From Firmicutes bacterium HGW-Firmicutes-14 (GTDB lineage: Bacteria > Bacillota > Thermincolia > Thermincolales > UBA2595): a stretch of DNA of 64,000 bases. The DNA lies in NCBI GenBank assembly GCA_002840275.1, contig PHAB01000001.1, positions 62,001 through 126,000 on the forward strand. Direction: 5' to 3'. Under the pieces are notes generated by a model. It saw only the letters and a program-made list of their open reading frames with translations, was not told the DNA's origin and made no database searches. Shown here in pieces: positions 36,483 to 57,881 of the stretch (position 1 is the first letter of the stretch; every line of letters begins with the position of its first letter). The position numbers were made by a program, and so were the translations under genes.

Positions 36483-36518
36483 AGTTTAGGTAAAAAAACA
36501 ACTACAGTGTTCCTTCCG

Positions 36519-36707
36519 TTATTTCCTTATAAATATTGTTATTACCGTTATAAGTACAAGTACCGTAGTAATAATATTTATTGGCATGTAACAATCGGGG
36601 AGAGCTGCTCCCTTTGCAAAGTTGGATTTGATCCATATACTCATTCCAAAGGCGCCAAACGTCATTAAAGCAGTAACCACCGCAATTATTAATTGAAACA
36701 TTCTCAT
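36519..36707 (-). CDS. Small two-helix membrane protein in a TetR-led operon
   Basis: A 62 aa protein with two hydrophobic helices (about residues 4-25 and 42-60) and a short loop with FAKGAALPDCYMP. AGGAGGG precedes the ATG, and its start overlaps the tetR stop (ATGA). Family not recognised. Confidence 0.6.
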   Translation of the reverse strand: MRMFQLIIAVVTALMTFGAFGMSIWIKSNFAKGAALPDCYMPINIITTVLVLITVITIFIRK

Positions 36708-54884: not shown

Positions 54885-55217
54885 TTATGTTTCTTCATTC
54901 TCCAGCAAATCCCCGAATAGGATACGCGTATAATTTCGTCTACCGTATAAGATTCTTGACACGAAAGCAATTCCACCTTCGTACCTGTAAAATATCAAGT
55001 AATTGTCACAAACAAGGAAACAGTAATCTGTTTGTATATCCAGGACGGAAGATAGTGGCACACCTATTCCGGGATACTCTGTCAACCCACGTATCTTTTT
55101 GGTGATTTTAGAAACAAGATTTATAGCTGCCTGTGGATTGCAAAGTTCTTTAGAAATAAAGTCTTTAATTTCTGCTAAATCATCTTTAGCTTCAGGTGAA
55201 ATTTTCAGCTTATACAT
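54885..55217 (-). CDS. RelE/ParE-family toxin
   Basis: A 110 aa toxin: YKLKISPEAKDDLAEIKDFI, LCNPQAAINLVSKITKKI, YPGIGVPLSS, DYCFLVCDNYLIFYRYE and VSRILYGRRNYTRIL, all typical RelE/ParE features with basic residues near the end. The ATG at 55217 follows GGGGATTGAGG and overlaps the antitoxin stop by eight bases. Not closely similar to the toxin at 41885. Confidence 0.9.
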   Translation of the reverse strand: MYKLKISPEAKDDLAEIKDFISKELCNPQAAINLVSKITKKIRGLTEYPGIGVPLSSVLDIQTDYCFLVCDNYLIFYRYEGGIAFVSRILYGRRNYTRILFGDLLENEET

Positions 55218-55464
55218 CCTCAATCCCCAGTTCTGCTTCCACTTCCTCTATTGTCATCCATCCTTTTTCTTTTGCGGCCAGTTCTCCTTGAGCAAGCTGT
55301 GACATCAGCTTTAGTGAAGCCTTTAATTTCTCATATTCATTAATATCAACAACAGCAAATTTCCCTCTGCCATTTTTTGTTAAAAAAACCGGTTCACCTA
55401 TGGCAATGTCCTGCAAGACTTTGTTGTAATTCCTTAAATCTGATATTGGTTTAATGTTTGGCAT
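55210..55464 (-). CDS. Phd/YefM-family antitoxin
   Basis: An 84 aa antitoxin: PNIKPISDLRNYNKVLQDI, EPVFLTKNGRGKFAVVDINEY, and an acidic tail EEVEAELGIEDV that should bind the toxin. AAGAAGGAGG precedes the ATG, and an almost identical second copy of that ribosome site lies 20 bases further upstream. Confidence 0.9.
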   Translation of the reverse strand: MPNIKPISDLRNYNKVLQDIAIGEPVFLTKNGRGKFAVVDINEYEKLKASLKLMSQLAQGELAAKEKGWMTIEEVEAELGIEDV

Positions 55465-56968: not shown

Positions 56969-57048
56969 TCCCGATTTTTTCTTTCAGTTAACGACATGGT
57001 TACTTATCTATTAGATTTTTCTTTACAACAAAAAAAATTCCTTCATTT

Positions 57049-57171
57049 GGGTTGATATATACAACGGAATTACTCTTGGTTCCATTATGCGCCTCTAAGG
57101 CGAAATCACTGATTCCGCCTTAGAGGCGCAACAATGGAACCAAAGGCAAATCCTTTTGTATATATCAACCC
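57049..57171. repeat. 123-base long inverted repeat (hairpin element)
   Basis: GGGTTGATATATACAA (57049-57064) pairs with TTGTATATATCAACCC (57156-57171), and the inner arms TTGGTTCCATT and GCGCCTCTAAGGCG pair with GCCTTAGAGGCGC and AATGGAACCAA. It has a small central loop and a few bulges. It may be a MITE-like palindromic element or a structured RNA. It has no coding frame and no clear flanking duplication. The rest of the 56969-57284 gap is AT-rich with nothing recognised. Confidence 0.85.
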
Positions 57172-57284
57172 TTGTATGTTGCCGGATGGGGCACTGGATG
57201 CTGCCCGCAGGTGCCGGGGTATACCTTTATAAAACTTAGAGATAATAAAAAATGTATCAGAGAAAACACAACAGAGGGTAAAAA

Positions 57285-57881
57285 GTGGAAAAATATCTGC
57301 AAGAAATCAGAAAAATACTAACCCGCTCTTCCATAAGACAAAGGAACACCGACAAGTACCTGGATCTGGCTTCACTGCAGGGCCCTCCTTCGCCGGAAGA
57401 ACTTAACTCCACTGCCCTGCCCGGGGACGCGCTGGTGACCTTCCAGGAAATGCTGATGCTGGAAATATCAAAATTTAGTCTCGATAAAATCAAGGTCGGT
57501 ATAAATGAACTGCTTAAACATTTTATGGTCTCTATAAACCCGGAATTGGAAGACACTCTCGCCGAACATTATATGTACAGGCTGCGGCTTATTTTCAAAA
57601 GGTGCCTGATGCCGGATTTCCCTTTTCCGGAAGAAATCTGGAATTATATATGTGACTGCCTGCGCACTACCGGGTCCTTCCTCCTGGAGGAGGGGTATTA
57701 TACCGCCTCCAGGGAAATTATCGACTCCCTGGCCGGTATGGGAAGGATTGCGGCTGTAAAAGGCCTCCCTACTGCCAATACCCAGTCTTCCCTGAGGATA
57801 CTTGAAAACAGGGCTATTGACAGGGGAGAAAAAGCGCTGGCTTCTGTAGCCAAAAATGCACGGTTTAACCTGGAAACTTAG
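57285..57881 (+). CDS. Hypothetical 198 aa cytosolic protein
   Basis: Starts at GTG behind GAGGGT. Helical and soluble, with a proline-bearing segment GPPSPEELNSTALPGDALVT near residue 33 and a Cys in a helical middle (YICDCLRTTGSFLLEEGYY). No known family or active site recognised. The membrane-protein gene follows after 33 bases and probably forms one operon with it. Confidence 0.6.
   Translation: MEKYLQEIRKILTRSSIRQRNTDKYLDLASLQGPPSPEELNSTALPGDALVTFQEMLMLEISKFSLDKIKVGINELLKHFMVSINPELEDTLAEHYMYRLRLIFKRCLMPDFPFPEEIWNYICDCLRTTGSFLLEEGYYTASREIIDSLAGMGRIAAVKGLPTANTQSSLRILENRAIDRGEKALASVAKNARFNLET

Follow-up and report, generated by a model that had tools for sequence, protein, structure and literature searches.

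The hairpin studied here lies at positions 57049-57171 of the window, by which we mean the whole stretch of 64,000 nucleotides analysed, taken from the genome of Firmicutes bacterium HGW-Firmicutes-14 (G000; 3.65 Mb, 67 contigs). It is flanked by divergent genes: to its left a methyltransferase gene with TRAM and tRNA_U5-meth_tr domains runs on the minus strand (start 56968), and to its right the first of two genes starts at 57285. Neither of these two genes has a Pfam match at E <= 0.01, in keeping with an earlier note on this DNA, which had listed them as unknown. The 123 bases start with GGGTTGATATATACAA and end with TTGTATATATCAACCC, and coordinates, length and ends were as that note had given them. 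Its description of arms pairing over about 50 bases with few bulges agreed with the fold of the isolated hairpin (123 nt), which has 53 pairs and a free energy of -75.2 kcal/mol. The segment 57030-57190 folded at -78.4 kcal/mol, compared with a mean of -33.2 kcal/mol (SD 4.0) for shuffled sequences (z = -11.2), and none of the 200 shuffles was equally stable. The GGGTTG/CAACCC sequences do bound the hairpin, but they are not the ends of the element, as the terminal repeats of the copy C5a reach 57 and 61 bp further out. The following parts were recognised in the window copy:

57010..57048, plus strand: decayed left subterminal AT-rich part (BLAST of the flanks; the window copy, C15, against C5a gave 84% over 107 bp, beginning 35 bp before the hairpin)
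57049..57064, no strand: left outer stem arm GGGTTGATATATACAA (exact match, both window strands)
57049..57171, no strand: core hairpin, short form of 123 bp (fold, genomic copies, and arms matching over 22 positions around TCACTGA, one mismatch at most)
57156..57171, no strand: right outer stem arm TTGTATATATCAACCC (exact match, both window strands)
57178..57197, minus strand: remnant of the right terminal inverted repeat, GTTGCCGGATGGGGCACTGG (comparison with the right ends of the other copies)

The left terminal repeat was not recognisable in the window copy when compared with the other copies, and about 50 bp that the other copies have between the hairpin and the right repeat are missing (by eye). 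The core is a long stem, and its fold-back centre near 57109 replaces the two-hairpin TwoAYGGAY tip of the longer copies; the two AYGGAY-type loop hairpins present in the 211-bp copies are absent. An Rfam scan of the window found nothing, the TwoAYGGAY family (RF01731) included. Elsewhere in the window we have noted a minus-strand type II toxin-antitoxin pair at 54885-55464, with a ParE-type toxin (PF05016, 51.8 bits) and a Phd/YefM-type antitoxin (PF02604, 39.1 bits), and an inverted repeat of 31 nt at 36518-36592 (74% complementary, 13-nt loop).

A genome-wide search for further copies, which the earlier note had proposed, placed the hairpin at 11 dispersed sites in G000 (window copy included), plus the weak fragments C37b and C1. 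The single, unconserved copy that would have spoken against the note's reading was thus not what we found. Three forms were distinguished: a short form of about 123 bp (n = 3; the window copy, C23, and C21 of similar length), one of about 211 bp (n = 5; C2, C33, C31, C5a and C37) and one of about 267 bp (n = 3; C5b, C39 and C19). The best kept copy, C5a (L038), measures 329 bp as a whole element and has terminal inverted repeats of 29 bp with 29 of 29 positions paired. The outer repeats of this subfamily read YAGTGCCCCWTCNGGCAACRTTGACCTG, with ends of the form YAGTGCCCC...TTGACCTG, and are unlike those of the IS1182-type relatives described below. Their pattern matched 10 sites in G000 and none with the reversed control. 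For the inner repeat pattern there were 189 sites (about 100 of them listed) against 97 for its reverse; 16 unassigned sites were examined, about six of which had solo or mini repeat forms, and most of the others resembled chance matches in genes. The family is therefore short, non-coding and dispersed, with terminal inverted repeats that are complete in C5a and reduced to the right remnant in the window copy. The note's suggestion of a MITE-type element was supported by these 11 copies and the fully paired ends of C5a, and by relatives with target duplications.

The core of the window copy differs from that of C23 at one of 123 bases, and the flanks of the two do not align by BLAST. Conversion between copies or constraint may have kept the cores alike. 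In C23 and C21 the orientation of the core is inverted relative to the flanks. In the 267-bp copies (C39, L039; C5b, L034; C19, L041), the loop of the first tip hairpin is enlarged by an extra stretch of about 56 bp, itself foldable. In the genome G236 this loop holds the transposase part (see below), and the extra bases may be what a lost cassette has left behind. Besides, the fragment C37b (L042, G000:C37:188500) lies beside an apparent element of another subfamily (like L103, with a TGTTGA end and ATTCTAAGYCGGACATT), perhaps a nested insertion. A second TwoAYGGAY-type subfamily with CTTGTTGACAAA-like ends was seen at L100 (G000:C26:85700-85858) and L103 (G000:C19:13822-13933), of which L100 interrupts a terminator-like hairpin, AAAGGGCTAACTCT..AGAGTTAGCCCTTT.

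The earlier note had also considered a structured RNA, and this held in part: the longer copies match TwoAYGGAY, below the cut-off in G000 and reaching or exceeding it in a sister genus, and their fold covaries, but the family appears to be the tip of mobile elements. Against the cut-off of 43 bits, C33, C5a, C2 and C37 scored 36.2-38.8 bits and C31 27.8 bits, and the 267-bp and short copies were not among the RF01731 matches of G000; four further matching places in this genome belong to other subfamilies. Copies of the sister genus (G001, Firmicutes bacterium HGW-Firmicutes-8, stretches 100% identical) reached 43.2 and 48.2 bits. As the window copy gave no match and the other G000 copies at most 38.8 bits, we have filed the window copy as a derivative of RF01731 and not as a member. 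In a set of 12 cores (five of the eight longer G000 copies and seven G001 copies), 54 predicted pairs were common to all, and for 17 of the 54 at least one sequence has both partners changed with the pairing intact. Of 398 sampled genomes of the phylum, 51 matched RF01731 at E <= 0.001, 34 of them above the cut-off, with up to six candidates scored per genome. A scan of named genomes with the tip pattern returned 27 stretches, six of them in G001; RF01731 was not matched in the eight that were tested among the other 21. In the genome G002 (L046, 1896-2230), the cspA thermoregulator family RF01766 was matched with 74.5 bits, narrowly below the cut-off of 78.

We found no IS1182 match in G000 at E <= 1e-5, and the 10 terminal repeat sites of the window subfamily included no transposon-sized pair that could represent an autonomous partner. 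Target duplications, for which the earlier note had recommended a search, were not found in this subfamily, where the direct flank score averaged 5.2 against 5.3 for controls (9 copies), but the relatives show a clear duplication of hairpins. The flanking dinucleotides of the window-type copies were TA/TA in 4/9 and TG/TG in 1/9, with no longer duplication, and the inverted pairing of their flanks, which would reveal a split hairpin, scored an unconvincing 6.2 against 5.5 in the control (9 copies). Because of the differing repeats, the missing hairpin duplication and the lack of an IS1182 match in G000, the window copy was assigned to the element group by its core and architecture.

The relatives in other genomes are better preserved and mobile. 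Identity among six copies in G259, whose flanks are unrelated, is 94.6-98.2% over about 250-287 bp, and four copies in G036 share 93.3-97.6% identity. With at most one mismatch, the terminal pattern CAGWYTGTWGACAAA matched 90, 81 and 172 sites in G125, G259 and G254, compared with 2, 3 and 2 for the reversed pattern. Copies were chosen by this terminal repeat and not by RF01731, as the first 20 exact sites listed in G125 and in G259 and the first 19 exact pairs in G254, in each case outside the loci already obtained; six, six and two copies obtained earlier for RF01731 were added. Among those chosen by repeat, RF01731 was matched at E <= 1 in 11/20 (G125), 18/20 (G259) and 8/19 (G254, all below the cut-off). 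For each copy, the 45 bases to the left were aligned with the 45 to the right, right ends being sought down to 25 bp, and for control the left flank of one copy was paired with the right flank of another. Scores were obtained for 25 of 26 copies in G125, 22 of 26 in G259 and all 21 in G254; the unscored ones were L229, L156, L157 and L158, for which the pattern did not find both ends, and L253, whose flank was too short.

Hairpin duplication at or above the 99th control percentile was observed for 18/25 copies in G125, 19/22 in G259 (18/21 distinct) and 20/21 in G254, with 18, 16 and 18 copies, respectively, above every control pair (600, 462 and 420 pairs). L259 and L263 are one site on two contig ends and were counted twice here, and their cross pair gave the top control score of G259 (12.0). 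For distinct sites pooled over the three genomes, 56/67 reached the 99th percentile and 52/67 exceeded every control. The duplicated sequence is mostly a terminator-type hairpin that differs from site to site (AAGGATGCATTTGATTGCATCCTT at L278, for instance). A hairpin of -8 kcal/mol or lower stood at the left foot of 52/68 scored copies, compared with 4/67 windows taken 78-110 bases upstream. Seven G125 copies scored low (L226, L230, L232, L233, L234, L243 and L177). On inspection by eye, two of them (L230 and L233, whose right end had been misassigned) are flanked by the hairpin on either side, as is L177 with a reversed loop; none of the three was counted. Of the initial six G125 copies, five passed the scored test.

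Several of the remaining G125 loci lack the tip, like the window copy, or are mini forms; their ends are those of the other copies. Three tip-less ones (L224, L239 and L240) passed the duplication test, so that insertion either does not require the tip or preceded its loss. As seen by eye, L224, L230, L233, L239 and L240, some shorter than 120 bp, have full ends and a hairpin on both sides, which parallels the short form in the window. In G001, where the element ends read CTTGTTGACAAAT and resemble the IS1182-type repeat, three of seven copies (L049, L053 and L059) lie inside hairpins, their flank pairing being 15.5-18.5 against a highest control of 14.5, which the other four did not exceed. 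L049, L055 and L059 sit in another repeated hairpin, of type CCGGAGGGGCTGGGGTGTTCC, so that a second palindromic repeat family appears to serve as target in this genome. A G254 element had no match among plasmids and phages. Of five G125 stretches with wider-spaced repeat pairs, three (one of them in part) were read for genes, as was one G254 stretch; they enclosed ordinary genes, and no transposase was recognised there.

IS1182-family transposases (NF033551, E <= 1e-50) were present in 67 of 299 genomes sampled. The terminal repeat TGTWGACAAA (at most one mismatch) was found at both ends of 8 of 31 IS1182 loci, and the reversed pattern gave three single matches in all flanks together. By eye, six of these eight transposons lie between two copies of one hairpin (L290, L293, L294, L300, L304 and L310; not L292 and L296). 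A direct connection was seen in G236, where three elements scored 42.0, 41.7 and 37.6 bits for RF01731, under the cut-off. The last of them, L320, aligned with all five IS1182 copies examined at 89.5-98.5% identity: the left part, up to base 176, matched one end of the transposon, and the right part, from base 172 on, matched the other. Hence, the TwoAYGGAY-type fold of G236 amounts to two transposon ends joined. The transposase frame has 499 aa, and in L323 and L325 the first GGA-type hairpin harbours the transposase part in its loop, with ACGT on either side. Hairpin duplication was recognised by eye at four of the five IS copies (for L322 only one end was found) and at the elements L319 and L320; for L318 no end was found. 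The MITE may have arisen from the transposon by deletion, or a MITE may have become the transposon by receiving a transposase cassette.

Other repeat-bearing IS1182 transposons have other subterminal sequences, with no RF01731 match in the six tested, and no shared ends were recognised for the IS1182 transposases of G001, G125, G254 and G259. Common ends link RF01731-type elements with IS1182 transposons directly in G236, and by repeat type in G125, G254 and G259; the window subfamily shares neither. In G182 (L197, L202 and L209), the end TTTGTCAACACTCTG of both partial IS1182-family transposase copies is followed by one hairpin, AGCCACTCCTACACGGAGTGGCT, beyond which the two diverge; on a third contig there is a left end that has TGTAGACAAA.

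These comparisons indicate that the window hairpin is probably a worn form of a non-autonomous mobile element (MITE) from the TwoAYGGAY group, one that has lost its tip and most of whose outer ends have decayed. The group itself would be best read as MITEs of IS1182-type transposons that insert at terminator hairpins, and not as a free-standing regulatory RNA, because of the hairpin duplication in the relatives, the repeats shared with IS1182 transposons and the shared ends in G236. A full element has, besides terminal inverted repeats and an AT-rich spacer, a long imperfect stem whose tip bears two small GGA-loop hairpins. Being gene-less, it would need a transposase acting on its ends. In the better preserved relatives these ends (type CAGACTGTWGACAAA) are also those of certain transposons of the IS1182 family, and an enzyme of this kind may have moved the window subfamily. 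The target in the relatives is a terminator-type hairpin, which is found whole on both sides of the element. Most simply, strand transfer would take place at the two 5' feet of the extruded stem-loop, and the repair that follows would duplicate the hairpin. The elements of the relatives fit the hairpin-duplication pathway drawn as a possibility in PMC5678879. A likely benefit would be that the upstream gene keeps its terminator after insertion.

The short form may be explained separately. In all three short copies the right arm complements the left one about a TCACTGA palindrome, over 36 positions in C21 and 22 in C15 and C23 (at most one mismatch). In the simplest reading, a template switch during replication would have produced it: synthesis would have switched template at the TCACTGA palindrome of the left arm, so that the right arm was copied from the left and the tip was lost. 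The outer ends of the window copy would have decayed afterwards. This copy is a fossil, with no sign of recent movement or of a present function.

A different origin of the window subfamily, as a MITE of another transposase (of a TA-target type, for example) that took over a TwoAYGGAY core, would confine the IS1182 mechanism to the relatives. IS630/Tc1-type elements use TA target sites, and the TA on both sides of four of nine copies, the lack of hairpin duplication, the differing outer repeats and the absence of an IS1182 match from G000 would all suit such an origin. Yet the core is homologous to that of G001, where the CTTGTTGACAAAT ends resemble the IS1182-type repeat and 3/7 copies lie in split hairpins. 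TA, being palindromic, may belong to the terminal repeat, and the repeat-pattern search of G000 did not find a transposase of another kind with window-subfamily ends either. We regard this origin as possible but rather doubtful.

TwoAYGGAY was tabulated as a probable RNA, not cis-regulatory, in the part of PMC2864571 consulted, and was proposed in 2014 as a candidate CsrA-binding sRNA in that of PMC4333381. It would then act in trans, titrating CsrA through its two GGA loops, and the repeats would be duplicated RNA genes. Besides this proposal (PMC4333381), the conserved GGA loops and the covarying structure point that way, and so does a slight excess of G-U over A-C changes on the AYGGAY strand (26 vs 19 events), an asymmetry that is however too small to show selection on an RNA. 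Such a role is nevertheless improbable given the terminal repeats, the target duplications and the tens of sites per genome, the ends common to a transposon in G236, the tip-less forms that also lie between duplicated hairpins, and the window copy, which has no GGA-loop tip. That the hairpin is retained as a terminator or attenuator for the genes beside it is very improbable. The hairpin is very stable and intergenic, and its core was kept as the flanks decayed, but it stands between the starts of divergent genes with no T run after it on the relevant strand on either side, which does not correspond to a Rho-independent terminator, and C23, with one of the 123 bases different, stands elsewhere between flanks that show no alignment to those here.

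If the MITE reading is extended to the whole group, TwoAYGGAY would represent a phylum-wide, structure-guided transposition, in which IS1182-type transposases move long-stemmed elements with a conserved two-hairpin tip into terminator hairpins. With the whole terminator duplicated, the upstream gene would retain it and the insertion would be nearly neutral. The tip hairpins would serve as landing pad for a transposase cassette, turning a MITE into an autonomous transposon again; in G236 such a cassette lies between two ACGT within the first GGA-loop hairpin. We see the chances for and against this broader picture as evenly balanced.

An identity is thereby offered for an Rfam family of unknown function matched in 51 of the 398 sampled phylum genomes, and a mobile-element reading is set, testably, against the CsrA proposal of 2014. 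The relatives also provide natural, controlled examples in which a whole stem-loop is duplicated on transposition, which the IS1272 paper, in the part consulted, drew as a possibility only (PMC5678879). They suggest that an element may settle at little cost by copying the terminator that it enters.

Group IIC introns likewise insert at transcription terminators. They do so by a mechanism based on the intron RNA and a reverse transcriptase, whereas the elements described here have DNA-transposon repeats in common with a transposase-bearing element. As with bacterial MITEs, in the portion of PMC10969869 consulted, they are short, non-coding and intergenic, with terminal inverted repeats, many copies and transcripts predicted to fold; they differ by their very long stem, their conserved and covarying tip, and a target duplication set by structure and not by a fixed stagger. 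With TwoAYGGAY they share the branched tip with two small GGA-loop hairpins (27.8-38.8 bits for the 211-bp copies of the window family, up to 48.2 in G001). However, TwoAYGGAY carries the type cis-regulatory in Rfam and has elsewhere been tabulated as a probable RNA or proposed as a CsrA-binding sRNA, whereas here it would be the tip of a mobile element, which the window copy has lost. A description of TwoAYGGAY as a mobile element was not found in the portions of the literature searched, which included PMC2864571, PMC4333381, PMC11701678, PMC4923244, PMC5678879 and PMC10969869 and left subscription papers and supplements aside. Also among the nearest known systems are the IS1182 transposons, of which IS1272/TnSha1 has been studied: 8/31 loci carry the same type of repeat at both ends, 6/8 of these have a hairpin on both sides, and IS1272, an IS1182 member, targets terminator hairpins too. 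In the parts of PMC4923244 and PMC5678879 consulted, IS1272 replaces or partly deletes such hairpins without target duplication. Here, in contrast, the whole hairpin is duplicated, and the element in the window has no transposase gene.
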